The notes beneath the pieces were generated by a model. That model saw only the letters and a list, made by a program, of their open reading frames with translations, was not told where the DNA came from and made no database searches. From the NCBI RefSeq assembly GCF_018310535.1, contig NZ_CP074102.1:8122001-8186000 (forward strand): a stretch of 64,000 bases of DNA. The letters are read 5' to 3'. Within the stretch, counting starts at the first letter, position 1. The number at the start of each line of letters is the position of its first letter. This DNA comes from Streptomyces mirabilis. Lineage in GTDB: Bacteria; Actinomycetota; Actinomycetes; Streptomycetales; Streptomycetaceae. The translations under genes and the position numbers were made by a program. Shown piece after piece: positions 4,302 through 23,422 of this stretch.

Positions 4302-4639
4302 AGTACGTCCTGTTCATCTGCACCCCCGTCGGCGGCGAGGAGCTGAGCCCCGCCGAGATCGCCGACGACCCCCGCTTCACCTCGTACATTGACGAGGTCC
4401 GAAGCCGCGACATCGTCAAGGGCGGCGCACGGCTGCGGCCCTCCACCGACGCCACCACCGTCCGTGTCCAGGGCGACGAAGTCCTGCTCACCGACGGGCC
4501 GTTCGTGGAGTCCAAGGAGTACGTGGCCGGCTTCGACCTCATCGAGGTCGCCGACCTCGACGAGGCCATCGCGCTCGCGTCCCGGCATCCGGCGGCGCTG
4601 GGCGGCGGCTCGGTCGAGGTGCGGCCGGTCTGGGAGTGA
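4298..4639 (+). CDS. DGPF/YCII-family protein
   Basis: A 113-residue stand-alone YCII-related protein with DGPFVESKEYVAGFD near residues 67-81, closely similar to the N-terminal half of the preceding protein, so the two probably arose by duplication. It starts at an ATG overlapping the upstream stop, and its own stop overlaps the GTG of the sigma factor, so all three genes are translationally coupled. Partner, regulator or substrate-binding protein of the ECF42 sigma factor is the likely role; no enzymatic activity is inferred. Confidence 0.88.
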   Translation: MKYVLFICTPVGGEELSPAEIADDPRFTSYIDEVRSRDIVKGGARLRPSTDATTVRVQGDEVLLTDGPFVESKEYVAGFDLIEVADLDEAIALASRHPAALGGGSVEVRPVWE

Positions 4640-5895
4640 ACGACATCGGTGACGTGGAGGCGGCGGTCGCCGCCGCCTTCCGCGAGGAATGGGGCCAGGT
4701 CGTCGCCACCCTGATCCGGGTGACCGGCGACTGGGACCTCGCCGAGGAGTGCGCGCAGGACGCCTTCGCGCAGGCCCTGGACCGGTGGCGGCGCGACGGA
4801 GTGCCGAGCCGCCCCGGCGCCTGGCTGACCACGACCGCACGCCACCGGGCCCTGGACGTGCTGCGCCGCGAGGCGGTGGGGGCCCAGAAACTGCGGGAGG
4901 TGGCCGTGCTGGCGCGGGACGACGGGCCCTGCGACCCGGAGTACGACGGCGACGACAGCGGCGTCCGCGACGACCGTCTGCGTCTGATCTTCACCTGCTG
5001 CCACCCGGCGCTCCCCATCGAGGCCCGGGTGGCACTGACCCTGCGCACCCTCGCCGGGCTCACCACCCCCGAGATCGCCCGCGCCTTCCTGGTGCCCGAG
5101 GCGACCATGGCGCAGCGCCTGGTGCGCGCCAAACGGAAGATCCGCAACGCCGGCATCCCCTACCGCGTACCGCCCGCGCATCTGCTGCCCGAACGCACCA
5201 CCGGCGTTCTCGGCGTGGTCTACCTGCTCTTCAACGAGGGGTACGCCGCCACGTCCGGCGCCGATCTGGTGCGTACGAACCTCTGCGCGGAGGCCATCCG
5301 GCTCGCCCGTGTCCTGGCCCGCCTGATGCCCGACGAACCCGAGGTGCTCGGTCTGCTGGCCCTCCTGCTGCTGCACGACGCCCGGCGTGCCACCCGGGTG
5401 GACCCGACGGGCGAGCTGGTGACGCTGGAGGACCAGGACCGTACGGCCTGGGACAGGTCCGCCGTCGACGAGGGCGCCGCCCTCCTGGAGACCGCACTGC
5501 GCCGCGGACGCCCGGGGCCCTACCAGATCCAGGCCGCCATCGCCGCCTGCCACACCACCGCCGCGACGGCCGGGGACACGGACTGGGCCGACATCGCCGC
5601 GCTGTACGGGGAACTGGCGCGTTTCGTGCCCTCCGCCGTGGTGCGGCTCAACCGTGCGGTGGCGGTGGGCATGTCCGAGGGCCCGGAAGCGGGGCTGGCG
5701 CTCGTCGCGGAGCTGGAGCGGGAGGGCGAGCTGGACGGCTACCACCTGCTGCCCGCCACCCGCGCGGACCTGCTGCGACGGATGGGACGCCCGGTGGAGG
5801 CGGCCGAGGCGTACGCCCGGGCGCTGGAGCTCGTGGAGAACGCGGCCGAGCGGCGCTTTCTGGAGAAGCGGCTCGCGGAGTGCCGATCGGCGTAG
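4636..5895 (+). CDS. ECF sigma factor with C-terminal TPR-like extension (ECF42 group)
   Basis: At 419 residues this is about twice a normal ECF sigma factor. Region 2 spans roughly residues 10-75 (GDWDLAEECAQDAFAQAL, then TTTARHRALDVLRRE) and region 4 roughly 120-180 (LAGLTTPEIARAFLVPEATMAQRL). The remaining ~230 residues are the helical, TPR-like extension of this group, including VVYLLFNEGYAA and several ARAL/AEAY helices. No anti-sigma gene is adjacent; in ECF42 the extension is thought to replace one. GTG start overlaps the DGPF stop. Probably activates the candidate promoter at 3499-3525. Confidence 0.93.
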   Translation: MNDIGDVEAAVAAAFREEWGQVVATLIRVTGDWDLAEECAQDAFAQALDRWRRDGVPSRPGAWLTTTARHRALDVLRREAVGAQKLREVAVLARDDGPCDPEYDGDDSGVRDDRLRLIFTCCHPALPIEARVALTLRTLAGLTTPEIARAFLVPEATMAQRLVRAKRKIRNAGIPYRVPPAHLLPERTTGVLGVVYLLFNEGYAATSGADLVRTNLCAEAIRLARVLARLMPDEPEVLGLLALLLLHDARRATRVDPTGELVTLEDQDRTAWDRSAVDEGAALLETALRRGRPGPYQIQAAIAACHTTAATAGDTDWADIAALYGELARFVPSAVVRLNRAVAVGMSEGPEAGLALVAELEREGELDGYHLLPATRADLLRRMGRPVEAAEAYARALELVENAAERRFLEKRLAECRSA

Positions 5896-5929
5896 GACCG
5901 TCCGCGGCGACCGTCTCCGGACCGGGTGG

Positions 5930-6700
5930 TCACACCGAGTCGAGCGCGTTCGTGATCGCCTTCACGCCGCCGTGCGCCGAGTAGCCGCCGTCCACGGTGA
6001 TCTCGGCGCCGTTCACGTAGGACGACTCGTCGGAGAGCAGATACACGACCAGCGGCGCGACCTCCTCGCAGCTGCCCGGGCGGCCCTGCGGAGTCATCGA
6101 GAGGTGCGCCCGCGTGAAGACCGGGTTCGCCGTCGCCATCAGGGGGGTCTCGATGTAGCCGGGGTGGATGAGGTTCGTACGGATGCCGCGCGGTGCCAGT
6201 TCCAGCGCGGCCACCTTCGACAGGCCCCGCAGCGCCCACTTGCTCGCCGTGTACGCGACCGCGTGATGGGCGGTGAGAGCGGCCACCGAGCCGACGTTCA
6301 CGATCGAGGACCCGGGGGGCATCAGCGGGGCGAGGGCCTGGACGCCGAGCATCGGGCCGGTGGTGTTCACCGCGAACGCCCGGTTCCAGTCGGCGAGTTC
6401 CACCGCGCCGAGACGGGCCCGCATGGGGATCCCGGCGTTGTTGACGAGCCCGTGCACGGCCTCCAGTGAGCTCGCCAGGGCCGCCCAGTCGTCCGGGGAC
6501 GACACGTCCAGGTGGTGGTAGCGCACGTCGAGGCCGTCGGTGCGCAGGGCGGCGGCGAGCTTCTCGCCGGGCTCGTCGAGGACGTCCGTGGCGACCACCG
6601 AGGCCCCCTCGTGGGCCGCCGCCGCCACCTCCACGGCTCCCTGGCCCTGTGCGGCTCCGGTGATGACGACGGTACGACCGGCCAGGCGCGTGCGGCTCAC
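5930..6700 (-). CDS. Short-chain dehydrogenase/reductase
   Basis: A 256-residue classical SDR. It has TGAAQGQG near residues 14-21, NNAG near 86-89, active-site Ser in NVGSVAAL and a canonical YTASK. The C-terminus ends with a typical NGAEITVDGGYSAHGG tail. I start at the GTG preceded by GGAGGAAG; an in-frame TTG four codons upstream lacks a ribosome site. It is the last gene of the minus-strand catabolic arm, 36 bp beyond the LysR stop. Probably oxidises or reduces an alcohol/ketone intermediate of that pathway. Confidence 0.9.
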   Translation of the reverse strand: MSRTRLAGRTVVITGAAQGQGAVEVAAAAHEGASVVATDVLDEPGEKLAAALRTDGLDVRYHHLDVSSPDDWAALASSLEAVHGLVNNAGIPMRARLGAVELADWNRAFAVNTTGPMLGVQALAPLMPPGSSIVNVGSVAALTAHHAVAYTASKWALRGLSKVAALELAPRGIRTNLIHPGYIETPLMATANPVFTRAHLSMTPQGRPGSCEEVAPLVVYLLSDESSYVNGAEITVDGGYSAHGGVKAITNALDSV

Positions 6701-6736
6701 GGCTTCCTCCAAGGGGGCGTGGGTTCGCTCCCCACG

Positions 6737-7717
6737 CTAGGAAACCGGGGCCGGCTCCGGAAACGCATGTTCGCCATGGCTGGCATTCACGCCGACGATC
6801 TCCGCGGGCGCGGGATCGTCCAGCGACGCGCCCACCTTGCGGACCGTCTCCCGCAGCCACCGGTGCGCGGGATCCGCGTGCCGGTTGTGGTGCCAGTACA
6901 TGGCCTCCACGAGCGGCACGTCCGGGAACGGCGTCGGTACGACGGCACAGCGGGCGAAGCCCTCGTAGCGTCGGGCGAGCCGCTCGGGCACCAGGGCGAC
7001 CAGGTCGGTGCCGCTCACCAGGAACGGCAGCACGTTGAAGCCGGGCGTGCTGACCTGCACCCTGGGCGTGATGCCGAGCGTCTCCAGCTGGCGGTCGGCG
7101 GGTGTGAGCTTGCCGATGCCGCACGCCGCGTGCGGCATCTCCGCCAGGTCACGCAGGACGAGCCGCCCGTCCACCAGGCGCGGGTTGTCGGGGTCGACGA
7201 GACACACGAACCGGTCGTGCATCACGGCCTCGCTGACGCCCGGCAGCTGGTACCCGAGCGGCACGATCATCAGGTCGTGACAGCGCAGATGGGTCTCCGT
7301 CTCCAGCTGCCCGTCCACGATGGGGTGGAAGTCGATACGGACGCCCGGCGCCTCCTGCGCGATGGCCCGCAGCAGCGGCTCCACGAACACCGTCATCACA
7401 TAGTCCGACATCACCACCGAGAAGCGCTGCCGGCTGCGTGCGGGCTCGAAGTGCCGGGTCAGCGAGAGTGCCTCCTCGGCCTTGTGCAGGGAGGCCTGGA
7501 CGACCGGCAGCAGGCGCTCCGCGAGCGGCGTCAGCTCGTACTCACGCCCCACCCGCACCAGCAGCTCGTCGTTGAAGTGCCGCCGCAGCCGGGCCAGTGA
7601 GCCGCTCATCGCGGACTGGCTGGTGGACAGCCGCACCCCCGCGTGGGTGACGTTCTTCTCCTCCAGGAGGGCTTCCAGCGCCACCAGGAGATTCAGGTCG
7701 ATCGCTCCGAGACCCAT
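6737..7717 (-). CDS. LysR-family regulator, NodD/NahR-like
   Basis: A 326-residue LysR protein. The N-terminal winged HTH covers residues ~5-65 (VALEALLEEKNVTHAGVRL, then TSQSAMSGSLARLRRHF), followed by the effector-binding domain. The start DLNLLVALEALL and the segment VMSDYVMTVFVEPLLR resemble the NodD/NahR subgroup, whose members often respond to aromatic compounds. The ATG at 7717 is preceded by GGAAGGAG, so the longer upstream frame is discarded. It lies in the same direction as, and 154 bp after, the FAH-family gene and is the obvious candidate regulator for both catabolic arms. Confidence 0.93.
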   Translation of the reverse strand: MGLGAIDLNLLVALEALLEEKNVTHAGVRLSTSQSAMSGSLARLRRHFNDELLVRVGREYELTPLAERLLPVVQASLHKAEEALSLTRHFEPARSRQRFSVVMSDYVMTVFVEPLLRAIAQEAPGVRIDFHPIVDGQLETETHLRCHDLMIVPLGYQLPGVSEAVMHDRFVCLVDPDNPRLVDGRLVLRDLAEMPHAACGIGKLTPADRQLETLGITPRVQVSTPGFNVLPFLVSGTDLVALVPERLARRYEGFARCAVVPTPFPDVPLVEAMYWHHNRHADPAHRWLRETVRKVGASLDDPAPAEIVGVNASHGEHAFPEPAPVS

Positions 7718-7871
7718 GTGTGTCTCCTTCCGGCCGCGTCGTTGAAGCTCGGTGAAACGGGAGCGTAACGACCGGGTTCCCGCCGAGGAAGGGTCCGGGA
7801 GGCAACTCACAGGGATCCGATGGCAGCCATCGGATCCCCGGATGTGTGCAGGTCGAAAGGGGTACGGAGGG

Positions 7872-8828
7872 TTACGGCCGGGGCGTACGGCCGCGTTTGC
7901 GGGCCCGTGGCAGGTACACGTCCGTGCGCCCGGGGACGATCCGGTTGGAGACGCTGCCGAGGCGCTCCACGGTGAGCGTCACCTCGTCGCCGGGCTTCAG
8001 GGGCGGCGGCGTACGTTCCCCGACGCGCCCCCAGAACTCCGCGAGCGCCCCCCAGCCGCAGGTGCCCGAGCCGAGGATGTCGCCGGGGCGCACCCAGGTG
8101 TCGCGGGCGGCGTAGGCGACCATCTCCTCGAAGGTCCAGGAGACGTTGGCGAGGGTGTCGCGGCCGATCAGCTCGCCGTTGAGGGCGACCGTCATCTCCA
8201 GGTCGAGGAAGCCGTCCGGGTCGCGCCGGTCCGCCACCTCGTCGGCCGTGACCAGATACGGGCCGAGGGTGTTCGCGAAGTCCTTGCCCTTGGAGAAGCC
8301 GAGCCCGAGGTTCTTCTCCGGTTTCTGCAGATCGCGCGCCGACCAGTCGTTGAAGACGAGATAGCCGACGATGTGCTCGCGGGCCCGCTGGGGCGTGAGG
8401 TCCCGGCCCGCACGGCCGACGACCGCGCCCACCTCCAGCTCGAAGTCGAGCACCGAGCAGCCCGCCGGTACCGGAACGTCGTCGTGCGCGCCGTAGGCCG
8501 CGTGCGGGTTGGTGAAGTAGAAGTTCGGCGCCCGATACCACTCCTCGGGCACCTGCTCCAGACCGTCCAGCGACTTGGCGACACCCTCGATGTGCGCCTC
8601 GAAACCGACGAAGTCCCGGATGGACGGCGGCTTCAGCGGGGGCAGCAGCCGTACCTGATCCACCGTCAAGTCGCTCTCGACGGAGAGCGCTTCGCTGCCG
8701 GCGGCATGCAGCGCCTCCTGTTCGACGAGCGACAGGACGGTGGTGCCGGGCGGCAGCGGATGGATGATCCCCTCCTGGACGACCCCGGCGCGCTCCACGC
8801 CCTCGTACGCGTATGTCGTGAACCGCAT
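7872..8828 (-). CDS. Fumarylacetoacetate hydrolase-family protein (minus arm)
   Basis: A 318-residue FAH-family enzyme, the fold that hydrolyses or decarboxylates acyl-pyruvates and 2-oxo-dienoates in aromatic breakdown. The metal-binding signature is visible as DFELEVGAVVGRAG near residues 125-138, with FVGFEAHIEG upstream and NDWSARDLQKPE near 160-171, a common arrangement in FAH enzymes. Its ATG is 3 bp after the stop of the BBE-type oxidase gene. A second FAH-family gene stands in the plus arm (13877-14890), so the pathway may need two different C-C hydrolase or isomerase steps. Confidence 0.92.
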   Translation of the reverse strand: MRFTTYAYEGVERAGVVQEGIIHPLPPGTTVLSLVEQEALHAAGSEALSVESDLTVDQVRLLPPLKPPSIRDFVGFEAHIEGVAKSLDGLEQVPEEWYRAPNFYFTNPHAAYGAHDDVPVPAGCSVLDFELEVGAVVGRAGRDLTPQRAREHIVGYLVFNDWSARDLQKPEKNLGLGFSKGKDFANTLGPYLVTADEVADRRDPDGFLDLEMTVALNGELIGRDTLANVSWTFEEMVAYAARDTWVRPGDILGSGTCGWGALAEFWGRVGERTPPPLKPGDEVTLTVERLGSVSNRIVPGRTDVYLPRARKRGRTPRP

Positions 8829-8831
8829 GCC

Positions 8832-10214
8832 CTATCGCTCCCAGTCGTTGGTGTTGGTGACGGTCCCGGCGCTCAGATGGCCCACGAAGAGGCCCTTCGG
8901 GTCGCGAGCCGCCCGGATCTCCCGAAGCCGCTCCCACTGCGCGTCACCCATGAACCTCAGCTGCCGCACGGTGAAGTCGGAGTCCCCGAGGTACTGGCCC
9001 GCGGTCACCGGCCGCATCGCCGCCATCGCCTCGTCGAGCCAGCCGCGCAGTTCGGCGTCGCGCCCGGGATCGTCGTGGATGACGTAGGTGGCGCAGTAGA
9101 TCTCGGACTGCAAGGAGAAGGCCATGTCCGGGAGTTCACGCAGCGGGGCCATCGAGAACCAGATGGTGAAGGTCTGCCGGGTCGGCTGCTCGGTGAACGC
9201 CTTCCGGATCGCCGGCACGACCTCGTCGGCGGACCCGGTCAGCCAGGCGTTGTCGACGAGATAGCGGTGCCCCTCGGGGTTGGCGAGACGCTGGCCCTGA
9301 AGCTGCTCGGCGAGGGTCGTCGGCTGCGCCTCGATCCGCAACAGCGCCCGGTCCGCGTACGGGTTGGCGTGCAGCGGGGCCAGTGCCTCGGCGGCCTGCT
9401 CGGCGGTGTCGGTCATCGACACGCCCGTGACCAGCAGCACCGGCCCGTCCCCGGCGGGCGGGGTCTGTGTCAGGGCGACGATCTCGACCAGGTCGGAGAC
9501 GGTGTGGTGCATGCCGTGCAGCCAGGTCATGACCTCGTCGAAGAGGGCGAGCGGGTACGCGTACACGGTGTGCGCCAGATGTTTCGGCAGCGGGCGGGTG
9601 CGCAGATGGAAGCGGGTCACGACCCCGAAGAACCCCGGGCCCGCGCCGCGCGCCGCCCAGAACAGGTCGCTGTGGTCCGTCTCGTCCGCACGCACCAGTT
9701 CGCCCTCGGCGGTGACGACGTCGATCGCGACGACGTTCTCGGCCGCCCAGCCCCAGCCGCGCGCGTTCCAGCCCTGCCCGCCCTGGAGCAGAAAGCCGCC
9801 GATGCCGACGGAGGGACAGTGCCCGCCGTTGAAGAAACGCCCGAACTCCCCCAGATACGGGTTGAGTTCGTCGCCGCCCTTGACGCCCGGGGCCGCCGTC
9901 ACGATCCCGGTCCGCGGGTCGTACGTCATCTCGCGCAGGCCCCCGAGGTCGATCAGCAGCGCGTCCTCGCGCACCGACCAGGCGGCCCAGCTGTGCCCGC
10001 CGGAGCGGACGGCGACCTGCCACCCCCGTTCCAGGGCGAGTCGTACCCCGTCGACGACGTCCTGTTCGGACGCGGCCGTCAGCACGGCGGCGGGGGTGCG
10101 GTCCGACGGGCGGCGGGCGTTGAAGACCCTGCCGAAACACGCCTCCTCGAAGTCCTCGTCGCCGGGGAAGTGGAGGGCGCCTGAGAAACGGTCGATGCGC
10201 ACGCTCGTACTCAC
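8832..10214 (-). CDS. FAD-linked oxidase, berberine-bridge-enzyme type
   Basis: A 460-residue PCMH-type FAD oxidase with a C-terminal BBE domain. The flavin-attaching His is in VRSGGHSWAAWS near residue 75. The second attachment Cys of bicovalent BBE enzymes is missing (the loop reads GGQGWNARGWG), so a single covalent link is expected. The C-terminal region WERLREIRAARDPKGLF is the BBE end motif. It probably oxidises a phenol, alcohol or amine-adjacent carbon with oxygen. GTG start overlaps the stop of the cyclase-family gene (GTGA). Cytoplasmic: no signal peptide seen. Confidence 0.92.
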   Translation of the reverse strand: MSTSVRIDRFSGALHFPGDEDFEEACFGRVFNARRPSDRTPAAVLTAASEQDVVDGVRLALERGWQVAVRSGGHSWAAWSVREDALLIDLGGLREMTYDPRTGIVTAAPGVKGGDELNPYLGEFGRFFNGGHCPSVGIGGFLLQGGQGWNARGWGWAAENVVAIDVVTAEGELVRADETDHSDLFWAARGAGPGFFGVVTRFHLRTRPLPKHLAHTVYAYPLALFDEVMTWLHGMHHTVSDLVEIVALTQTPPAGDGPVLLVTGVSMTDTAEQAAEALAPLHANPYADRALLRIEAQPTTLAEQLQGQRLANPEGHRYLVDNAWLTGSADEVVPAIRKAFTEQPTRQTFTIWFSMAPLRELPDMAFSLQSEIYCATYVIHDDPGRDAELRGWLDEAMAAMRPVTAGQYLGDSDFTVRQLRFMGDAQWERLREIRAARDPKGLFVGHLSAGTVTNTNDWER

Positions 10215-11179
10215 TTGATCGCGATCGGATTGACAGGGGCGCCCACCGCGCCGGTGACCGGCAGCGGCGCCGCGATCAGCAGGAACTCATGGACACCGTC
10301 GGCGGCGCAGTCCTCGGCCAGCTCCTCCAGGTCCCACATCTCGCCCAGCGGGAGGCCCATGTTGGGGATCGCGATCTGGTGCAGCGGGGACATCGCCGGC
10401 TGGGCGAACTCGTACGGGCGTACTTCGAGCCCCCAGGTGTCGGAGGCGATCGCGGCGATCTCCGTACGGTGCAGCCAGCCGAGCGTGGTGAAGGAGAGGC
10501 CCGGGGCGTCCCCGGCGGCGTACCCACCCCACGCGCCGAGTCGCCGTACCCGCCCCAACTGCCCGGTCCTGACGAGGACCAGATCGCCGCGCCGTACGGA
10601 CGAGGTGGCGCCCTGCGCCTCGATCGTGGCGCGCAGATGCTCCTCCAGGATCGGGAAACCGTCCGGGAGCTCGCCGTGTTCGTCGCCGACCGCGCGGCCC
10701 ACGTCGAGCAGGACCCCGCGCCCGGTGAAGGCGTCCTTCATGTGCTCGATGCCGGTGACCGAGTCCCCGTCGCCGTTGACGATGGTGCACGGACGGCCGT
10801 TCCAGGCCCGCTTGTTGTCGTAGATGTGTCCGAGGCCGTCCCACTGGGTGGAGGCCTGGAGCGGCATCACGACATGGTCGTCGGCGCCCCCGAAGCCGTG
10901 CGGGAAGCCCTGCGTCCCGGCGGCCGCGTCCGAACCGGTGTCCTTCATGTAGTGGACGGGGTTGATCCGGCCACGGAAACCGCGCTGTGGGCCCCTCTCG
11001 TTGAACTCCTGGGAGAGCGAGAACGACCGGCCCCGCCGGACCAGGCCCGCCGCGTGCGCCCGTATCGCGTCGTCGATGAAATTGAGCGTGCCCAGCACGT
11101 CGTCCTCACCCCAACGGCCCCAGTTCCGGTAGGCGGAACGGGCTTTGGCGAGCTCTTCCTCAATCGGACCCAGGCTCAT
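10211..11179 (-). CDS. Cyclase-family (PF04199) hydrolase
   Basis: A 322-residue member of the family that includes kynurenine formamidase, isatin hydrolase and polyketide cyclase-like enzymes. The family metal-site motif HxGTHxDxPxH appears in a variant form as STQWDGLGHIY near residues 90-100: the Asp and last His are kept and the first His is Gln, as in the longer ~320-residue subgroup. It probably hydrolyses an amide or lactone or opens a ring. The ATG overlaps the amidohydrolase stop (ATGA). Substrate inferred only from the surrounding aromatic-type genes. Confidence 0.88.
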   Translation of the reverse strand: MSLGPIEEELAKARSAYRNWGRWGEDDVLGTLNFIDDAIRAHAAGLVRRGRSFSLSQEFNERGPQRGFRGRINPVHYMKDTGSDAAAGTQGFPHGFGGADDHVVMPLQASTQWDGLGHIYDNKRAWNGRPCTIVNGDGDSVTGIEHMKDAFTGRGVLLDVGRAVGDEHGELPDGFPILEEHLRATIEAQGATSSVRRGDLVLVRTGQLGRVRRLGAWGGYAAGDAPGLSFTTLGWLHRTEIAAIASDTWGLEVRPYEFAQPAMSPLHQIAIPNMGLPLGEMWDLEELAEDCAADGVHEFLLIAAPLPVTGAVGAPVNPIAIK

Positions 11180-12180
11180 CGAGTACGTCCATTCTGTAGC
11201 AGGTCGAGAGCGTTGCCCCCGGCGACGGCGACACGGTCGGCCGGGGACAGCCCGGCGGCGTCCAGCCGGGCCACCGGGTCCTCGACGCCCATGTCGAAAG
11301 GGTGATCGGTGCCGAGGACCACCCGGTCCGCGCCGACCTCCTCGACCAGATGGCGCAGGCCGCCCGGGGTGTAGACGAGCGCGTCGAACCACATGCGGCG
11401 CAGATACGCGCTCGGCGGCTCCGCGCAGCCGCGCGCGTCCTCGCGCACGTGCCAGGCGTGGTCGGAACGGCCGATGTACGTCGGCAGATAGCCCCCGCCG
11501 TGCGCGGCGACGAGCTTGAGTCGCGGGAAGCGGTCCAGGACACCGGTGAAGATGAGGTGCGAGAGCGCGACCGTCGTCTCGACGGGCTGCCCGACCGTGT
11601 TGCCGAGGTAGTGCGTGGCCAGCCGTTCGCCGAGCGAGCAGCCCCAGGGGTGCACGAAGACGACCGCGCCGAGCTCCTCGGCCCGCTGCCACACCGGGTC
11701 GTGCGCCGGGTCCGCGAGCTCCCGTCCGTCCACGGTCGTGGACACGCTGATTCCGTACAGGCCGTACTCCGTGACCGCCTTGTCGAGGAGCGCGACCGCG
11801 AGGTCCGGATGCTGGAGCGGGACCGTGCCCATGCCGTAGAGCCGCTCCGGCGCGACCGCGCAGTGCGCGGCCACGGCCTCGTTGACCGTGTGCGCCAGGC
11901 GTATGCCGAGATCCGCGTCCGCCCAGTAGTGGTGCATTGGCATCGGGCCGACCACCTGGAGGTCGACACCCATCGCGTCCAGGTCGGCGAGCCTGGTCGT
12001 GACGTCCGTCAACTTCGGAGCGAGGCGCTGGAGTTGGGCGCGGTTGGCTGCCAGTGACGTGGGGGAGTGCGCCCGCTGTTCGTTGGCCAGCTCGGCGGCC
12101 AGGCCGGGCGTGCCCGCGCACAGCGCGTCGGCGGCGGGAACGGCGAGGTGACCGTGGAAGTCCACGACGGGAACGTTCAT
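11176..12180 (-). CDS. Amidohydrolase_2 / ACMSD-like metal-dependent decarboxylase or hydrolase
   Basis: A 334-residue TIM-barrel amidohydrolase. Metal ligands are visible: HxH at H9/H11 (VDFHGHL), His in FVHPWGCS, His in VAAHGGGYLP and Asp in LGTDHPFDMG. This is the set of 2-amino-3-carboxymuconate semialdehyde, gamma-resorcylate and 5-carboxyvanillate decarboxylases, so removal of a carboxyl group from an aromatic or ring-opened acid is the leading idea. It is coupled at both ends, sharing ATGA with the monooxygenase stop upstream and with the cyclase start downstream. Confidence 0.9.
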   Translation of the reverse strand: MNVPVVDFHGHLAVPAADALCAGTPGLAAELANEQRAHSPTSLAANRAQLQRLAPKLTDVTTRLADLDAMGVDLQVVGPMPMHHYWADADLGIRLAHTVNEAVAAHCAVAPERLYGMGTVPLQHPDLAVALLDKAVTEYGLYGISVSTTVDGRELADPAHDPVWQRAEELGAVVFVHPWGCSLGERLATHYLGNTVGQPVETTVALSHLIFTGVLDRFPRLKLVAAHGGGYLPTYIGRSDHAWHVREDARGCAEPPSAYLRRMWFDALVYTPGGLRHLVEEVGADRVVLGTDHPFDMGVEDPVARLDAAGLSPADRVAVAGGNALDLLQNGRTR

Positions 12181-13301
12181 GCGGCGGCCGTCAGGTAGTC
12201 CAGGGTCTCCGACATGATCCGGCCGGGGTCCGCGCCGGGCGTCTCCGGATGGATCTCCCAGTCGGCGAGGCGCAGCGAGTTCTCCAGCACCACCCGCACC
12301 CGGGGCAGCCGGCGCGCCATGAAGGTGTCGAGCGCCTTGTCGAGCGGCGCCCCGCCGGTGACGAGTTCCGCGAGCACGACCGCGTCCTCGGCGCACATCG
12401 CGGCGCCCTGCGCGATCAGCGGCGGGCAGGCGTGCGCGGCGTCCCCGATGATCACCGTACGGCCCCGGTACCAGGGCTCGTCGACGAGGATCGCCTCGAT
12501 CCACCGGTAGTCGACCGGGGCGTCGTCCGGCAGCGAGGCGAGGATCCTGCCCCATGTGCCGCCGTACCCGGCGCCGCGCTCGCGCAGCAGCGACAGCGGG
12601 GCGCGCGGGCCGATCAGCGAGGCGTCGAGGTTCTCGTCGAGCAGGTAGGCGTAGCACCGGTCGGGCGAGATGGGGCTGTAGCCGGCCTTGTAGCGCGGGC
12701 CACCGTAGTACACCTCCGCGCAGTCCATCTCGGGCGGGCGCTGCGCGACCACCCGGAAGATCGACATACCCACCGGGCGGGGCCTGGTGGTGATCCCGAT
12801 CAGCTGCCGCATCCGCGAGTTGATGCCGTCGGCGCCGACCACGAGGTCGTAGCGGCCGCTGGTGCCGTCGGTGAACGTGACGTCCACATGGCCGGGGGAC
12901 TGGTCGAGCTTCGCCACGCTCAGCGCCAGCCGGACACGTACCCCCTGCGCGTAGACCGCGTCGCACAGCGCGTCCTGCAGGTGCGAGCGCAGCGCGCCCG
13001 CCGTCGACGGCAGCTCGGCACCGCCGGTGTGCGGGGTGCGCAGCTCGGCGAGCAGTCCGCCGTCGGCCCGGCGCAGCCGCATCACGTCGAACGGGACGGC
13101 GCGGGCGAGCACCCGGTCGAGCACGCCCACCGAGCGCAGCGCCTTGAGCGCGTTGCCCTGGACGGTGATGCCGTGGCCCACACCGAACCACTGGGGCGAT
13201 ACCTCGGCGAGTTCGACCTCGGCGCCCCGCTGGGCGAGCGCGAGCGACAGCACGCTACCGGTGATGCCGCCGCCGACGACGAGCACCTTGTGTACGGGCA
13301 T
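12177..13301 (-). CDS. FAD-dependent aromatic hydroxylase-type monooxygenase
   Basis: A 374-residue class A flavoprotein monooxygenase (p-hydroxybenzoate/salicylate hydroxylase type). It shows the dinucleotide motif VVGGGITGS at residues 8-16, the DG motif LVVGADGINSR near 155-165 and the GD motif VIIGDAAHACPP near 282-293. NAD(P)H-dependent ring hydroxylation is the typical reaction. The start MPVHK is preceded by AAGGA, so the 42 extra upstream codons are discarded. It follows the ABM gene by 41 bp and is coupled to the amidohydrolase gene. Confidence 0.92.
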   Translation of the reverse strand: MPVHKVLVVGGGITGSVLSLALAQRGAEVELAEVSPQWFGVGHGITVQGNALKALRSVGVLDRVLARAVPFDVMRLRRADGGLLAELRTPHTGGAELPSTAGALRSHLQDALCDAVYAQGVRVRLALSVAKLDQSPGHVDVTFTDGTSGRYDLVVGADGINSRMRQLIGITTRPRPVGMSIFRVVAQRPPEMDCAEVYYGGPRYKAGYSPISPDRCYAYLLDENLDASLIGPRAPLSLLRERGAGYGGTWGRILASLPDDAPVDYRWIEAILVDEPWYRGRTVIIGDAAHACPPLIAQGAAMCAEDAVVLAELVTGGAPLDKALDTFMARRLPRVRVVLENSLRLADWEIHPETPGADPGRIMSETLDYLTAAA

Positions 13302-13342
13302 GGGCGATCCTTGCGAACGTAGGAGAAGAAGGAGGGGTGCGG

Positions 13343-13648
13343 TCAGGCGGTGAAGCGGTCGCCGAGCGTGCGGTAGTGCTCGACGGCGGGTGGCGCGGCG
13401 AAGAACGGGCCCACCAGGGCGCGCCACCGCTGGAAGCGCTCGGAGCTGCGGAAGCCGACCGTGTGCGCCTCCACGGACGTCCAGCCGACCAGCAGCAGAT
13501 AGCTGTCCGGGCGCTCCTCGCAGCGCAGCAGCTCCGTCCAGCGGAACCCGTCCGCCTCGGCGAGCACCTCGCGGGCCTTGTCGAAGACGGCCTCGAAAAC
13601 TCGCTCACGACCGGCTTCCACGGTCAGCTCGGCATGCTCGACGATCAC
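13343..13648 (-). CDS. Antibiotic-biosynthesis-monooxygenase (ABM) domain protein
   Basis: A 101-residue single ABM-domain (dimeric ferredoxin-like alpha-beta barrel) protein. HAELTVEAGRERVFEAVFDKA, a central LRCEERPDSYLLLVGW strand pair and the terminal FAAPPAVEHY match the family. Members are cofactor-free oxygenases of quinol-type substrates or partner subunits. GTG start with GAGGAG seven bases upstream. First gene of the minus arm, facing the plus arm across a 228-bp divergent promoter region. Confidence 0.85.
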   Translation of the reverse strand: MIVEHAELTVEAGRERVFEAVFDKAREVLAEADGFRWTELLRCEERPDSYLLLVGWTSVEAHTVGFRSSERFQRWRALVGPFFAAPPAVEHYRTLGDRFTA

Positions 13649-13672
13649 ACTCGCTCCTCAGGTCCGATGGTG

Positions 13673-13690
13673 CTCCGAGCCTGCTCGGAG
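13673..13690. promoter_or_regulatory. Palindromic operator candidate between the two catabolic arms
   Basis: CTCCGAGC-CT-GCTCGGAG is a perfect 8+2+8 inverted repeat 25 bp upstream of the ABM start and inside the only divergent promoter region of the locus. A weaker repeat, CGTTG-N6-CAACG, follows at 13694-13709. Either could bind the locus regulator. No consensus promoter could be assigned confidently. Confidence 0.5.
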
Positions 13691-13876
13691 GGTCGTTGCA
13701 GGGTCAACGGATCGAGGCATCGGCAAGGGGGACGTCATCCATCCCGTACGACGATGGGCCGCTGATCACACGGCCTCCGGCCCCCTGATGGCAGGCATCG
13801 CGGATCGTCATTTCCGCCCCGCCCCCGCGCTGCCTAGCGTCGACGGCAAGCCACCCGCCGTACGAGGAGACCGCCC

Positions 13877-14890
13877 GTGTCCGACCGACTTCCCTCCCCC
13901 AAGTTCTCGGCTGCGCTCGAACAGGGAGGGACCCCCATCACCGGACCGTTCGCCCTCGGCACCTTCGGGGACGGCTCACGGGTCTTCCCGGGCCTGGTCG
14001 TCGGGCCCCGGGTACGTGACTTGTCCGACCTGGCCCCGTCCCTGCGCGCGGTCGTCGAGGACTGGGAGGCCCTCTTCCCGCGCCTGGTCGACCTTGCCCA
14101 GGAGGCCGCCGACGCCTGGCACGACCTCGCCGACCTGCGCGTCCTCGCCCCCATCGAGCCCGGCCAGATCCTGCAGAGCGGCGCCAACTACCGCAAGCAC
14201 GTGGTGGACCTGGTCGCCGCCGAGAAGGAGAGCGTGCACGGTGCCACGCCCGAGGAGGCCCGCGCGGACGCCGAGCGGATGATGGACGAGCGGATCCGCA
14301 GCGGCGTCCCGTACGTCTTCCTCGGCTCGCCCCGCGCGATCTGCGGCCCGTACGACGACATCGTGCTGCCCGCGTTCGGTGAACAGCACGACTGGGAGCT
14401 CGAACTCGCCCTCGTCATCGGCAGGACGGGCAAGAACATCCTGGTCGAGGACGCGATGTCGTACGTCGCCGCCTACACCATCTGCAACGACCTCACCACC
14501 CGCGACCGGCTCTACCGGCCCGACCTCAAGGCCATCGGCACCGACTGGTTCACCGCCAAGAACGCCGACACCTTCCTGCCGACCGGCCCCTTCCTCGTAC
14601 CGGCCGCCTTCGTCGGCAACCCCACCGAAGACGCGGACGTCCGGATCACCCTGCGCCACAACGGAGTCGTGCGCCAGGACGAGTCCACCAAGGACATGAT
14701 CTTCGACATTCCCCGGCTCATCGCCTATGTCTCCACGACCACCACCCTGCGCCCCGGTGACCTGCTGCTCACCGGTTCCCCGGCGGGCAACGGCGCGCAC
14801 TGGGGCGTCTTCCTCAAACCCGGAGACGTCATGGAGGCGGAAATCACGGGCCTCGGCCACCAGCGCAACACCGTCAGGAGCGGACAGTGA
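13877..14890 (+). CDS. Fumarylacetoacetate hydrolase-family protein (plus arm)
   Basis: A 337-residue FAH-family enzyme. Key segments are GANYRKHVVD near residues 102-111, the metal-binding WELELALVIGRTG near 173-185, and a C-terminal LRPGDLLLTGSPAGNG. The family covers acylpyruvate hydrolases, 2-oxo-hept-3-ene-dioate hydratases and beta-diketone hydrolases. GTG start; GAGGAGA lies just upstream. First gene of the plus arm; its stop overlaps the GTG of the dioxygenase gene. It differs clearly in sequence from the minus-arm FAH protein, so the two are not recent duplicates. Confidence 0.92.
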   Translation: MSDRLPSPKFSAALEQGGTPITGPFALGTFGDGSRVFPGLVVGPRVRDLSDLAPSLRAVVEDWEALFPRLVDLAQEAADAWHDLADLRVLAPIEPGQILQSGANYRKHVVDLVAAEKESVHGATPEEARADAERMMDERIRSGVPYVFLGSPRAICGPYDDIVLPAFGEQHDWELELALVIGRTGKNILVEDAMSYVAAYTICNDLTTRDRLYRPDLKAIGTDWFTAKNADTFLPTGPFLVPAAFVGNPTEDADVRITLRHNGVVRQDESTKDMIFDIPRLIAYVSTTTTLRPGDLLLTGSPAGNGAHWGVFLKPGDVMEAEITGLGHQRNTVRSGQ

Positions 14891-15828
14891 CCAGCACCTT
14901 CCAGCCCATCACCCACCTCCGCCATGTCGACCTGGCCGTACCGGACTTCGCCAGGCAACGCACCTTCTACGGCACCACCTGGGGCCTGACCGAGGTCGCC
15001 GGCGACACCGGGATCGCCTTCTTCGCCGCCGAGGGCAGCCCCGAGCAGTACATCGTCCGCATCCGCGAGGACGAGCGGAAGCGGATGGACCTGGTCGCCT
15101 TCGGCGCCCTCTCGCCGGCCGCCGTGGACGAGCTGCATCTGCGCCTCGGGCGGTCCGGAGTCCAACTCATCGGCGAACCGGGGACGTTGGACACGCCCGG
15201 CGGCGGCTACGGCTTCCGCTTCTTCGACCCGGACGGCCGGGTCGTGGAGGTGTCCGCCGACGTCGAGACGCGCGCACACCGCAGGATCGAGGAGCGCGAG
15301 GCGATCCCGGTGCGCCTCTCGCACTGCGTGGTCAACTCCCAGGACCCGGAAGGGCTGCGGGACTTCTACGTCCGGCACCTCGGCTTCCGGCTCACCGACA
15401 CCCTGTACTCGGCGCACATGGGCGACCTCATGTACTTCCTGCGGTGCAGCCCGCTCCACCACTCCTTCGCCATCGCGCGCGGCCCCCATGTCTCCCTGCA
15501 CCACGCCTCGTTCGAGATGCGCGGAGTGGAGGAGTACATGCGCGGTACGGGGCGGGCGCTGCGCGCCGGTACCCGGCTCACCTGGGGCCCCGGCCGCCAT
15601 CTCGCGGGCGACAACACCTTCTCCTACTTCCACGACCCGCACGGCAACACGGTCGAGTACACGACCGAACTCGCGGTCCTGGAGGAGGACCTGTGGCACC
15701 CGGGCCGCCACGACGTGGACGATCCGATCACCCAGGACCAGTGGGGCACCGCGGACCCGATGAGCGAGTCGGTCGCCAAGGAGCAGTTCAACGACCCCGA
15801 CGTGCTGTTCGTCGCACCCCCCGTGTAG
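14887..15828 (+). CDS. Two-domain VOC protein, type I extradiol dioxygenase-like
   Basis: At 313 residues it has the size of ring-cleaving extradiol dioxygenases such as 2,3-dihydroxybiphenyl dioxygenase, with two VOC repeats (residues ~10-125 and ~143-260). A full metal triad is visible in the C-terminal repeat: H146 (RLSHCV), a His near 206 (LHHASF) and E257 (TVEYTTE). These positions fit the iron ligands of BphC-type enzymes. Meta cleavage of a catechol-like intermediate is therefore plausible and would feed the FAH-family hydrolase encoded just upstream. GTG start overlaps the upstream stop. Confidence 0.85.
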   Translation: MTSTFQPITHLRHVDLAVPDFARQRTFYGTTWGLTEVAGDTGIAFFAAEGSPEQYIVRIREDERKRMDLVAFGALSPAAVDELHLRLGRSGVQLIGEPGTLDTPGGGYGFRFFDPDGRVVEVSADVETRAHRRIEEREAIPVRLSHCVVNSQDPEGLRDFYVRHLGFRLTDTLYSAHMGDLMYFLRCSPLHHSFAIARGPHVSLHHASFEMRGVEEYMRGTGRALRAGTRLTWGPGRHLAGDNTFSYFHDPHGNTVEYTTELAVLEEDLWHPGRHDVDDPITQDQWGTADPMSESVAKEQFNDPDVLFVAPPV

Positions 15829-15868
15829 CCGTCGACCGCCGTCAACCACCCGCAGAGAGGTCGCAGTT

Positions 15869-17170
15869 GTGGCAACGATCCTGAAACACGCCGTACCGGG
15901 GGCGGAGGTCACCGTCTCGCTCGACCAGGTCCGCGAGACCGTGGCGGGCGTCATCGCGGACGTCCGCGAGCGCGGCGACGCGGCCGTGCGCGCGTACTCC
16001 GAGAAGTTCGACCGGTGGAGTCCCGACGCCTTCCGGCTCTCCGCCGAGGAGATCGAGAAGATCGTCGCCTCGGTCCCGCGGCAGGTCATCGACGACATCC
16101 GCTTCGTCCAGGACCAGGTGCGCTCCTTCGCCCGCCACCAGCTCGACTCGATGGGCGAGTTCGAGGTGGAGACCCTGCCGGGCGTCAGGCTCGGGCAGAA
16201 ACACATCCCGGTGCGGGCGGCCGGCGCCTACATCCCCGGCGGCCGTTACCCGCTCACCGCGTCCGCGCACATGACCATCGTCACGGCGAAGGTCGCGGGC
16301 GTGCCACGGGTCGTCGCCTGTACGCCCCCGATCCACGGCGAGATCCCCGCGGCCACCGTCGCCGCCGCGCACCTCGCGGGCGCGGACGAGATCTGGCTGC
16401 TGGGCGGGGTGCAGGCCGTGGCCGCGATGGCCGTCGGCACGGACACGATGGAGCCGGTGAACCTGATCGCCGGTCCGGGCAACGCCTATGTCGCCGAGGC
16501 CAAGCGCCAGCTGTTCGGCGAGATCGGCATCGACCTCTTCGCGGGCCCGACGGAGATCCTGGTCCTCGCCGACAGCGCCGCCGACCCCTTCGTGTGCGCC
16601 GTCGACCTGCTCTCCCAGGCCGAGCACGGCCCCGACTCCCCGGCCGTCCTGATCACCACCTCCCGCGAGATCGCCGAGAAGACCATCGCGGAGGTCGAGC
16701 GGCTCCTGCCGGGCATGCCCACACGCGATTTCGCGGGGCCTGCCTGGCGCGACCACGGGCAGGTGCATGTCGTGGACTCCCTCGACGAGCTGTACGCGCT
16801 CGCCGACGCGTTCGCCTTCGAGCACGTCGAGGTCCTGACCGCCGAGCCGCGCGAGGCCCTGCGCAGGATGACGCAGTACGGCGCGCTCTTCCTGGGTGAG
16901 GGCACCTGTGTGTCCTTCGGCGACAAGGTCATCGGCACGAACCATGTGCTGCCGACCCGGGGCGCCGCCCGCTACACGGGCGGCCTGTGGGTGGGGAAGT
17001 ACCTCAAGACGGTCACCTACCAGGAGGTCACGGACACCGGCTCGGGGGCGCTGCTCGGCCGGCTGTGCGGGCGCGCCTCACGCGTCGAGTTGTTCGAGGG
17101 GCACGCCCGCTCCGGTGACGTACGGGCGGCGAAGGCCGCGGGCGACGAACTGCCGTGGAACAACGCATGA
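15869..17170 (+). CDS. Histidinol-dehydrogenase-family NAD-dependent dehydrogenase
   Basis: A 433-residue HisD-family protein. Characteristic segments are AGAYIPGGRYPLTASA near residues 116-131, GPGNAYVAEAKRQLFG near 205-220 and the zinc-site segment SQAEHGPDSPAVL near 249-261. No other his gene is nearby and the setting is catabolic, so it is more likely one of the paralogues that oxidise other alcohols (for example HpsN-like dehydrogenases) to acids in two NAD-linked steps. GTG start 40 bp after the dioxygenase stop; its stop overlaps the ATG of the following SDR. Confidence 0.88.
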   Translation: MATILKHAVPGAEVTVSLDQVRETVAGVIADVRERGDAAVRAYSEKFDRWSPDAFRLSAEEIEKIVASVPRQVIDDIRFVQDQVRSFARHQLDSMGEFEVETLPGVRLGQKHIPVRAAGAYIPGGRYPLTASAHMTIVTAKVAGVPRVVACTPPIHGEIPAATVAAAHLAGADEIWLLGGVQAVAAMAVGTDTMEPVNLIAGPGNAYVAEAKRQLFGEIGIDLFAGPTEILVLADSAADPFVCAVDLLSQAEHGPDSPAVLITTSREIAEKTIAEVERLLPGMPTRDFAGPAWRDHGQVHVVDSLDELYALADAFAFEHVEVLTAEPREALRRMTQYGALFLGEGTCVSFGDKVIGTNHVLPTRGAARYTGGLWVGKYLKTVTYQEVTDTGSGALLGRLCGRASRVELFEGHARSGDVRAAKAAGDELPWNNA

Positions 17171-17937
17171 CCCTCCACGGGCGTACGGCGCTGATCACGG
17201 GCGGCGGCGGACCGCTGGGGCGGGCCTTCGCGCTCGCCCTGGCGCGTGCCGGGGTCCGGGTGGTCCTCGTCGGCCGGGGCGAGCGGGCCCTCGCCGACGC
17301 GGCGGCGCTGGTGGCCGAGGAGGGTGGAGGGGCCCGTACGGCGGTGTGTGACGTCTCCGACCCGGAGTCGGTGCGCGCCCTGGCCCTCGAACTCGCCGAC
17401 GAGGAGGTGTCGTTGCTCGTCAACAACGCCGGAGTCGCGGGACCGGTGCGGCAGCTGACCGACATTGAGCCGCAGGAGTGGGACGAGGTGTTCGCCGCCA
17501 ACGTCCGCGGGGTGTACCTGATGTGCCGGGCCTTCCTGCCGCCCATGATCGCGGCCGGACGTGGTGACATCGTCAACATCGCCTCCGTGAGCGGAAAGCG
17601 GCCTCTGCTGAACCGCACCCCGTACACCGCCTCCAAGATGGCGCTCCTCGGTCTGACCCGGACGCTGGCGGGCGAGGTCGGACCATACGGCGTCGCGGTC
17701 AACTCCCTTTCCCCGGGGCCGGTTCGAGGTCCGCGCATGGACCGCAACTTCCGGCTGACGGCCGAGCTGACCGGTACGAGCGTCGAGGCCGCCGAGCGGG
17801 ACTTCGCCTCGCGCGCCGCGCTGGGCCGGCTCGTGGAGGAGGACGAGGTCGCCCGGGCGCTGGTGGCGATGCTCGCGATGCCGGGACTGTGCGGGGCGGA
17901 CATCGACCTGTCGGCGGGGATGATCGCCCCGGCGTAG
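17167..17937 (+). CDS. Short-chain dehydrogenase/reductase (plus arm)
   Basis: A 256-residue SDR with GGGGPLGRAFA near residues 13-23 (a glycine-rich variant of the cofactor motif), NNAG, active-site Ser in NIASVSG and canonical YTASK. The C-terminal end is CGADIDLSAGMIAPA. The ATG overlaps the HisD-like stop, so the two dehydrogenases are co-translated and may act in sequence. It is the last gene of the plus arm and is followed by a hairpin. Substrate unknown. Confidence 0.9.
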   Translation: MTLHGRTALITGGGGPLGRAFALALARAGVRVVLVGRGERALADAAALVAEEGGGARTAVCDVSDPESVRALALELADEEVSLLVNNAGVAGPVRQLTDIEPQEWDEVFAANVRGVYLMCRAFLPPMIAAGRGDIVNIASVSGKRPLLNRTPYTASKMALLGLTRTLAGEVGPYGVAVNSLSPGPVRGPRMDRNFRLTAELTGTSVEAAERDFASRAALGRLVEEDEVARALVAMLAMPGLCGADIDLSAGMIAPA

Positions 17938-18245: not shown

Positions 18246-20159
18246 ATGACGCTGATCACCCGACGTTCGTTCCTGATCGCCGGTACGGCCACGGCCGGAG
18301 CCCTGCTCGTCCCGGCGGCCCCCGCCCTGGCGGCGGGGCCCACGGCGAAGACGACCAAGGCGGACAAGATCTCCGTGGGGGCCGGCGAGACCTACCAGCT
18401 CTCGGCGACCACGCGCGTGAGCGAGCTGTCCATGGCCGAAGGCGGAAAGGTCACCGCGCCCGACGGGTACAGCGTCACCCTCACCGTCGACGGGGTCGAG
18501 ATCGGGCAGCTCCTCACCGAGACGGGTGGAACCGAGACGCTGATCTCCGCCGGCACCTACCAGGGCGACATCGTGCTCACCGTGGCGGAAGCCAACGCGG
18601 TCACCTATCAGACCGTCACCTTTCCCTTCCGGCAGGCCCTTTACGTGGGCGCCGACGGCGTGGACCGCGGCAAGTCCGTCCTGTCCGCAGTCGTCGGCGG
18701 CACGCTCACCGACACCCTCGCCCGCAACGTCGCGATCACCTCCACCGGCGAGTGCTTCGACGGTGTCTTCGTGAAGAACGGCACCTACACGCTCAAGAGC
18801 CCCGCCATCTCCCTCACGGGCAACGGGCGTTGCGACTTCGCGGGATACGGCGCCGCGGTCGTCGGCACCGGCTCGGCCACGACGCTCGTCGTGGACGGTG
18901 CCAGGATCACCAACAAGGGGGTGGTGCGCACGACGGTCATCGCGGACGACGGCGCCAACGTCATCGTGAAGAACTCCCGCCTGCGGGCCCACAACGGCAC
19001 GTTGCCCGCCGACTACCAGGCGACCGTGGAGACTCCGTACATGGAGTCCGTGCCGTGGATGCTCGGCCTGGACGGCGACGTCCGCGCCACCAACCTCATC
19101 GGCGCCGGCACCAAGGCGACGTACATCAACTCGACCGTGCAGTCGGAGACCTGGGGAGCCCTGTCGGTGGAGGGCGGCAGCGGGCTCCAGCTGACGGCGA
19201 TCAACAGCAGCGTCGGCAACACGGGAACGTACGGCTATGGCACCTACGCCATCGGGGACGCCACCGTCCGCGTGCTCGGCTCGCAGTTCGATGTCGGCTC
19301 CTACGCCACCATCTGCGCGGGCCCGGCCGCCTCGATCCACTACGGCGACAGCACTCGCGAAGCCGTCGCGGCACTCAACTCCTCGCTCGGCCTCGGACTG
19401 ACCAAGGCCGAACTGGCGGCCATCCCGGCCCGGATCACGGTCGTCAACTCGGGCCACTTCGGATTCATGTTCTTCGGCACCGGAACACTGAAGGTGGACG
19501 GCGGCACGGTCATCACCTCCGCGCAGACCACCTTCCTCAACAAGGGCCAGCAGACCTCGATCACGGTGGACGGATCGGAGGGTGCGCAGCTCAACCCCGG
19601 CAACGGGATCATCCTGCAGATGATCGAGAGCGACGACCCGGGCCCGGTGAACGTCGACGGCAAGATGATGAACGTCGGCGTCTACACCGAGCCCACGGGC
19701 GACCCCGCCAAGGACGCCTCCTTCGACCCGGCCTCGGTCCACACGGCCGACGGCGCCGCCACCTTCACTTCCATCGCGCTGGCGGGCGACTTCTACAACG
19801 GCATGCGCGCGGGCAAGAACATGGTCCTCACCTTCGAGGACTCGACCGTGCAGGGCGTCATCTCGGCCACGAAGGCCGAGCACCGCGTCAGCACGATCGA
19901 CTCCTCGAACTTCTACGAGCTGGGTCAGGTCACCAACACCGTCCAACCCGCCGTCAACAACGGCGTGATCGTCCAGCTGAACAGCGGCTCGGCCTGGACC
20001 GTGACCGGCACCTCGTATCTGACCAGGCTGACCGTCGCCGCCGATGCGGCGGTGCGGGCGGCGAGCGGCAAGTCCGTGACCATGACGGTCGACGGCACGC
20101 AGACGGCCATCGAGGCGGGAGGCGACTACTCCGGCGCGATCGTCCTCACGGTCGGCTGA
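18246..20159 (+). CDS. Tat-exported right-handed beta-helix protein
   Basis: A 637-residue secreted protein. The N-terminus TRRSFLIAG followed by a hydrophobic stretch and PALAA is a Tat signal peptide with cleavage near residue 29. The rest is rich in short beta-strand repeats with Asn/Gly/Thr turns (for example ATTLVVDGARITNKGVVRTT) and fits a parallel beta-helix of the pectate-lyase/adhesin type. Residues ~48-113 and the last ~60 residues share a module (SVTLTVDG...GTYQGDIVLTV versus SVTMTVDG...GDYSGAIVLTV) that caps both ends. GGGAAGG precedes the ATG. No catalytic motif was recognised; function unknown. Confidence 0.75.
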   Translation: MTLITRRSFLIAGTATAGALLVPAAPALAAGPTAKTTKADKISVGAGETYQLSATTRVSELSMAEGGKVTAPDGYSVTLTVDGVEIGQLLTETGGTETLISAGTYQGDIVLTVAEANAVTYQTVTFPFRQALYVGADGVDRGKSVLSAVVGGTLTDTLARNVAITSTGECFDGVFVKNGTYTLKSPAISLTGNGRCDFAGYGAAVVGTGSATTLVVDGARITNKGVVRTTVIADDGANVIVKNSRLRAHNGTLPADYQATVETPYMESVPWMLGLDGDVRATNLIGAGTKATYINSTVQSETWGALSVEGGSGLQLTAINSSVGNTGTYGYGTYAIGDATVRVLGSQFDVGSYATICAGPAASIHYGDSTREAVAALNSSLGLGLTKAELAAIPARITVVNSGHFGFMFFGTGTLKVDGGTVITSAQTTFLNKGQQTSITVDGSEGAQLNPGNGIILQMIESDDPGPVNVDGKMMNVGVYTEPTGDPAKDASFDPASVHTADGAATFTSIALAGDFYNGMRAGKNMVLTFEDSTVQGVISATKAEHRVSTIDSSNFYELGQVTNTVQPAVNNGVIVQLNSGSAWTVTGTSYLTRLTVAADAAVRAASGKSVTMTVDGTQTAIEAGGDYSGAIVLTVG

Positions 20160-22506: not shown

Positions 22507-22560
22507 GAACGGGACCCTAGACCGGCGCCCGGGGCGCGCGCTGCCCCTAAGCTGAGGGCG

Positions 22561-23403: not shown

Positions 23404-23422
23404 CCCGCGCTGTCCCGGGAGG

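Follow-up and report, generated by a model that had tools for sequence, protein, structure and literature searches.

A compact, divergent gene cluster of Streptomyces mirabilis, at positions 5930-17937 of the 64,000-nucleotide stretch analyzed here (the window), raises the question of which compound its 12 genes break down. The initial annotation described a catabolic locus for an unidentified aromatic or polycyclic acid. Catabolism of an aromatic compound is well supported, and we found nothing specific to an aromatic acid or a polycycle. A pathway type can also be assigned, because the FAD-dependent aromatic hydroxylase (FMO) shares a subfamily with a protein named FdeE, and relatives of HISD, ABM, FAH2, and AMH (described below) lie within or next to sets of fde-like genes; the exact gene set had no match in the literature searched. 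We propose, with a probability of about 0.5, that the cluster encodes an inducible catabolic pathway for meta cleavage of the A ring in a phenolic of the flavonoid or chromone type, resembling in its working the fde pathway of Herbaspirillum seropedicae SmR1 and the ifc pathway of Variovorax V35.

The genes are arranged in two tightly packed operons. In reading order, the minus-strand operon carries an ABM-domain protein gene (ABM), FMO, an ACMSD-like amidohydrolase gene (AMH), a cyclase-family hydrolase gene (CYC), a BBE/EncM-like FAD oxidase gene (BBE), a fumarylacetoacetase-like C-C hydrolase gene (FAH1), a LysR-type regulator gene (LysR), and a short-chain dehydrogenase gene (SDR1), and the plus-strand operon carries an acylpyruvase-like hydrolase gene (FAH2), a VOC extradiol dioxygenase gene (VOC), a histidinol-dehydrogenase-like NAD dehydrogenase gene (HISD), and a second short-chain dehydrogenase gene (SDR2). 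The tight coupling noted initially is borne out by the distances within operons, which are -4 bp in four cases and otherwise -16, 3, 24, 40, 41, and 61 bp, with one divergent gap of 228 bp. Pfam assigned a family to all 12 genes and agreed with each enzyme class named in the initial annotation. Among the NCBIfam matches listed, two were above cut-off, NF005313 for FMO and hisD TIGR00069 for HISD, the latter being a family score that does not prove histidine synthesis. The starts of CYC, AMH, and FMO were placed by us, and the start codon of SDR1 is uncertain (TTG at 6712 or some later codon). Long plus-strand open reading frames at 10289-13765 were rejected as genes, being antisense shadows with no Pfam or NCBIfam match.

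The link to flavonoid degradation rests first on FMO (12177-13301, minus strand; PF01494, FAD_binding_3), which scored 386 bits against NF005313 at a cut-off of 372. The same model was passed by FMOs of Ralstonia, Massilia, and Sphingobium and by P0355 (550 bits), named by its source 'naringenin degradation protein FdeE', while a 3-hydroxybenzoate hydroxylase control stayed under the cut-off at 177 bits. FMO shares 34-40% identity with seven fde-like FMOs (Massilia 40%, the others 34-38%), with 239 bits to the Massilia protein by BLASTP and 79 bits to the best PDB FMO by phmmer. In the FMO tree, the cluster proteins, which we call type I, and their paralogues, type II, formed their own clade (99/98) beside and not within the fde-like group (95/95), and the 3-hydroxybenzoate hydroxylase fell outside both. 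These comparisons suggest that FMO is FdeE-type at the subfamily level only. No H. seropedicae FdeE by that name was among the 120 matches listed, and its relatives and P0355 were used instead. Separate FMO-VOC pairs akin to those of the cluster were seen at 10832-12945 of locus L041 and 8766-10921 of locus L165.

The second line of evidence comes from a reference set of 80 fde-like loci, obtained by a genome scan with a Massilia dioxygenase that belongs to the FdeC/catechol-2,3-dioxygenase lineage and not to that of the window VOC, so that the scan gives fde context and is not a sampling of the window VOC family in named genomes. The label 'fde-like' rests on gene order (POP-VOC-Rieske-FMO) and on gene identities in print, where passages of two papers give FdeC as Hsero_1005, FdeE as Hsero_1007, and FdeD as the Rieske protein (PMC10755750, PMC8552027). 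Part of a further source describes an fde-like cluster in P. thivervalensis strain SC5 (PMC8515041); our set includes another strain of this species. Within 3.5 kb of their VOC gene, an FMO was present in 67 of the 80 loci and a Rieske gene in 71, and such loci commonly carry FAH- and cyclase-family genes, as the window cluster does. A Massilia locus holding FMO, VOC, and Rieske genes also contains relatives of HISD (56%) and ABM (45%), and HISD has a 54% relative on Novosphingobium pNL2. Relatives of AMH (51-52%) and FAH2 (49%) lie directly beside fde-like genes in Massilia yuzhufengensis (POP-VOC-Rieske-FMO) and in a Janthinobacterium (VOC-Rieske-FMO), and two Oceanobacter loci both hold AMH at 43-44%, one of them (L077) with FAH2 at 41%. 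A Sphingobium VOC cluster reads LysR-FMO-VOC-hydrolase-(hypothetical)-cyclase-FAH, and its LysR is 34% identical to ours.

The route that we infer from gene families, order, conservation, and active-site residues would begin with FMO hydroxylating beside a ring hydroxyl, at C8 of a 5,7-dihydroxy A ring. VOC (14887-15828, plus strand; Glyoxalase/VOC in Pfam) would then cleave the C8-C8a bond, leaving an acylpyruvate on a pyranone. The extradiol triad H146, H206, and E257 reported initially holds, as these residues align with those of the catechol 2,3-dioxygenase 1mpy that we take to be its iron ligands (a 2-His-1-Glu site), and all three are kept in 24 of 24 VOC sequences picked for comparison. 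Catechol 2,3-dioxygenase shares this iron triad and the family, whereas the window VOC belongs to a VOC group of its own, with 109 bits against TIGR03211 (cut-off 320); the closest solved chain is 3b59, for which no function is given. Pyruvate would be released from the ring-fission product by FAH2 (13877-14890, plus strand; PF01557 at 213 bits), whose HpaG-type NCBIfam matches are under cut-off and whose PDB relatives are HpaG and FAHD1-type. AMH (11176-12180, minus strand; PF04909, Amidohydro_2) would remove the remaining carboxyl of the pyranone carboxylate as CO2, giving 5-aryl-3-oxovalero-delta-lactone. AMH aligns with the ACMSD chains 4ofc and 2wm1 at 178 bits, including FVHPW, AHGGG, and LGTD, and its N-terminal HxH reads DFHGH; the HxH, FVHPW, HGGG, and GTD residues are presumably those of the ACMSD metal site. 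AMH shares these motifs with ACMSD but differs in genomic setting and likely substrate.

The delta-lactone would be opened by CYC (10211-11179, minus strand), which scored above the PF04199 cut-off and has one solved relative, 5ibz; neither CYC nor AMH matched an NCBIfam model. SDR1 (5930-6712, minus strand; PF13561 at 182 bits) would oxidize the 5-hydroxyl of the resulting 5-hydroxy-3-oxo acid, and FAH1 (7872-8828, minus strand; PF01557, FAA_hydrolase) would cleave the 3,5-dioxo acid to an aryl carboxylate, such as 4-hydroxybenzoate, and acetoacetate. Fumarylacetoacetase cleaves a 3,5-dioxo acid of its own, and FAH1 is the only one of the two FAH proteins to match the fumarylacetoacetase model TIGR01266 (64 bits, cut-off 375); it carries a DF-x5-H sequence that we assume to be comparable with that of fumarylacetoacetase. 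Acetoacetate fits as a product, since CoA-transferase A/B genes follow the paralogous core described below and an acetoacetate-CoA ligase gene lies in a Corynebacterium occultum locus. The genome also has pcaH above cut-off and a pobA-like gene at 503 bits (cut-off 538.7), which we count in favor of the proposal. Passages of the Herbaspirillum work describe loss of the A ring and the 5-aryl-3-oxovalero-delta-lactone intermediate, after which the compound is hydroxylated, its ring opened, and the product decarboxylated to a butenone (PMC10755750). Because that route ends in a butenone, the steps after the lactone are our own proposal.

ABM (13343-13648, minus strand; PF03992), BBE (8832-10214, minus strand; PF01565, FAD_binding_4), HISD (15869-17170, plus strand; PF00815 at 456 bits), and SDR2 (17155-17937, plus strand; PF00106), the last paired with HISD, would be extras with a probable role in preparing a decorated substrate. 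LysR (6737-7810, minus strand; PF00126 and PF03466) would control the 228-bp divergent promoter (13649-13876). Its initial description as NodD/NahR-like is weak, its best NCBIfam matches being BsrA and LeuO, far under cut-off. An alignment of 13 Streptomyces loci revealed a highly conserved block at 13702-13745, which has a single match in the window, and the 21-bp core of this block has one exact genome copy and one site with three mismatches. We regard this block as a likely regulator site.

The genome contains a paralogous set of genes about 63 kb past SDR2. It comprises LysR, FAH2, CYC, FMO, AMH, VOC, FAH1, and SDR1 at 42-68% identity (LysR 42%, SDR1 61%, CYC 68%) and, with the CoA-transferase A/B genes that come after it, spans 4658-14228 of locus L056 (G000:C1:8202657-8212227). 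We refer to this eight-gene core as type II and to the 12-gene window cluster as type I. In our genus sample of 295 genomes, the window's own included, 109 have a best VOC match of at least 60% (counting the window genome and the 12 other type I genomes), so this VOC group is common in Streptomyces; eight more of the 117 genomes with a VOC match were excluded at only 41-43%. The VOC gene alone does not prove the core present, and the core was inspected in part of the genomes. All 17 short loci inspected hold FMO-AMH-VOC-FAH1, and four of six longer Streptomyces regions contain all eight core genes and the CoA-transferase pair, the remaining two having no match to SDR1 or CoA-transferase; L056, L163, and L166 were inspected in addition. 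The core is also present in Streptomyces NBC_01237 and in Nonomuraea gerenzanensis, the latter with no CoA-transferase match. Because of their distribution across genomes, the eight-gene core looks like the older unit, and ABM, HISD, and SDR2 look like type I extras.

Type I is narrower in distribution. The comparison across Streptomyces called for in the initial annotation showed a syntenic block in 12 of the 294 other genomes, and the conserved cluster is more than chance because VOC homologues of 90-95% identity occur in these 12. Four qualifications apply. Nine of the 12 regions hold all 12 genes, with the cyclase alignable over 57% only in L052 and SDR1 truncated where the retrieved sequence ends in L044, L047, and L055. 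The fetched stretch stops short of SDR1 in L051, and L050 is a 6-kb contig carrying six of the genes. In L053 (G122), an in-frame deletion near 9759-9900 leaves only the N- and C-terminal ends of HISD with its neighbors present, which may reflect either a natural event or an error of assembly. HISD at 91% or above occurs in 11 of the 12 cluster genomes and in none of the 282 others, and additional genomes carry relatives at 67-75%. Beyond the genus, a BBE search of 396 genomes of the phylum (E value 1e-90) gave five matches, namely, the window's own, one at 52% in G401, and three at 40-41%, one of which (L154) has no other cluster gene in the fetched region. G401 belongs to a different class of the phylum and reads FMO-FAH2-MFS-AMH-CYC-BBE-FAH1-SDR1, with an FdeE-like FMO; we count this occurrence of core genes with BBE in favor of the proposal.

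Several observations weigh against a flavonoid A-ring pathway. NF005313 carries the label 'hypothetical protein' and does not fix a substrate. The window VOC aligns with FdeC-type VOC at 33% over only 135 amino acids and is separated from it by a long branch in the tree, and the VOC of G401 is very divergent and lies upstream of its FMO-to-SDR1 row. The usual cyclase-family metal motif, which we take to be HxGTHxD, is missing from CYC, where the corresponding stretch reads QASTQWDGLGH. The best NCBIfam match of FAH1 is another FAH family (83 bits), with TIGR01266 far under its cut-off, and the SDR1 and FAH1 steps have no parallel in the available passages of the Herbaspirillum route. Relatives are rare among the 80 fde-like loci (AMH in four, FAH2 in three, HISD and ORF637, a protein encoded beside the cluster, in two each, and ABM in one), and none of the 80 has a relative of the window cyclase at 60 bits. 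The genome has nine Rieske matches, none in the window, and the 12 cluster genes include neither an FdeB-like alpha/beta hydrolase nor a cupin; the alpha/beta hydrolase at 20222-20914 is outside the cluster and was not compared with FdeB. Flavonoid-specific genes (glycosidase, chalcone isomerase) are also absent from the 12, and a single sugar-active gene was seen nearby, a GH13 enzyme at 20911-23586.

How the cluster relates to the two known systems can be judged from fde-like loci of other proteobacteria and printed passages for fde, and from printed descriptions, not sequences, for ifc. With fde, the cluster shares the FMO subfamily of the named FdeE, a VOC extradiol dioxygenase, a LysR gene, and a proposed lactone intermediate, but it has another VOC lineage and cyclase subfamily, and it differs in having an ACMSD-like decarboxylase and a second FAH. 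We do not assign it to the fde operons, because the Rieske partner FdeD, an FdeC-type dioxygenase, an FdeB-like hydrolase, and a cupin were not found among its genes. With ifc (IfcA, IfcB, and IfcD), it would share the FAD-dependent 8-hydroxylase and VOC ring cleavage, then a pyranone; ifc differs in having IfcD cupins, and no gene is assigned there to the step that forms the pyranone. By gene content, the cluster is neither an fde operon nor an ifc cluster, and probably a variant of aerobic A-ring meta cleavage. Among the papers listed in the literature searches, none showed an fde- or ifc-like cluster from Streptomyces or other actinobacteria; one of them, PMC11012174, concerns tyrosine catabolism. 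Indole-acetate, resorcylate, and kynurenine pathways were set aside on their marker genes, with no search aimed at them.

The main rival to a flavonoid substrate is a different phenolic degraded by the same meta-cleavage logic, such as an acyl-phloroglucinol, resorcinol lipid, coumarin, lignan, or microbial aromatic polyketide, with HISD, BBE, and SDR2 processing a side chain. The modest identity of FMO to fde-like FMOs (34-40%) would agree with this, as would the FMO-VOC pairs found elsewhere. The pair in L041, on a plasmid of S. angustmyceticus, is near styrene-monooxygenase-like and polyketide synthase (PKS) genes, which also counts against flavonoids and suggests that FMO-VOC pairs may serve in a biosynthetic setting too, and S. 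nigrescens also has an FMO-VOC pair. HISD-SDR2 pairs (66-75% to the window) also occur away from the cluster, in L148-L150, surrounded by a cupin and an alpha/beta hydrolase (L148, L149), a LacI-type regulator (L148, L150), and an MFS transporter (L148), possibly as a separate aromatic module. We nonetheless find another phenolic rather unlikely, as relatives of several cluster genes lie within or next to fde-like sets and the FAH2-AMH-cyclase series suits a known flavonoid-derived lactone.

Improbable, in our estimate, is a carboxylated-catechol pathway, in which FMO would form a dihydroxybenzoate-type ring, VOC would open it, and the ACMSD-like enzyme would decarboxylate the semialdehyde, as happens in the kynurenine route or in the 2,3-cleavage of protocatechuate. 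ACMSD is the closest PDB match of AMH (178 bits), and VOC does match TIGR03211 (109 bits, under the cut-off of 320), but Pfam detected no semialdehyde dehydrogenase, tautomerase, or aldolase among the 12 genes, and this reading gives no role to the cyclase or to the second FAH. The least credible reading is that the cluster builds or tailors a secondary metabolite, for despite the EncM-like oxidase (PDB relatives of BBE include EncM at 111-113 bits, the best scoring 130 bits), the ABM protein, and the PKS genes near a related FMO-VOC pair, the 12 genes include no synthase, carrier, or export gene, CoA-transferase genes follow the paralogous core, and the cluster includes a decarboxylase-like protein along with two C-C hydrolases.

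A-ring meta cleavage of a flavonoid would extend what is described for such pathways. The literature that we found, seen in part, holds two A-ring flavonoid pathways with genes, both proteobacterial and with post-cleavage steps partly unassigned (PMC11069340, PMC10755750). If the proposal is correct, plant-associated Streptomyces would hold an independent version, possibly in up to ~37% of the sampled genomes if VOC stands for the whole core, and the cluster would supply candidate enzymes for steps unassigned in fde and ifc. Its enzymes and regulator would be open to testing, as would a role in the root zone, and the pathway could perhaps, by our own inference, be a cause of product loss in Streptomyces engineered for flavonoids. 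More tentatively, and at somewhat less than even odds, Actinobacteria may have their own complete flavonoid A-ring meta-cleavage pathway. Its dioxygenase would come from a different lineage, an ACMSD-like enzyme would decarboxylate the pyranone carboxylate, and a fumarylacetoacetase-like last step would yield acetoacetate. Types I and II would then serve different flavonoid classes, the type I extras (ABM, HISD, BBE, SDR2, and a secreted protein) acting on a decorated substrate.

Next to the plus-strand operon and beyond the range initially annotated, ORF637 (18246-20159, plus strand) encodes a 637-amino-acid protein that is conserved with the cluster, at 75-84% in all 12 cluster genomes (on a separate contig in G242), and fragments and 46-57% relatives occur in other genomes. 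Its Tat-type signal reads RRSFL, and the protein has no Pfam match above cut-off and is predicted, with low confidence, to be mostly beta strand (AlphaFold2 mean pLDDT 52.5). The two Oceanobacter loci contain homologues with a lipoprotein-like start (36% and 34% over ~600 amino acids) beside fde-like genes. On the other side, past the end of SDR1, a YCII/SnoaL-domain protein and a same-strand ECF sigma factor with DUF6596 are encoded at 3564-5895.

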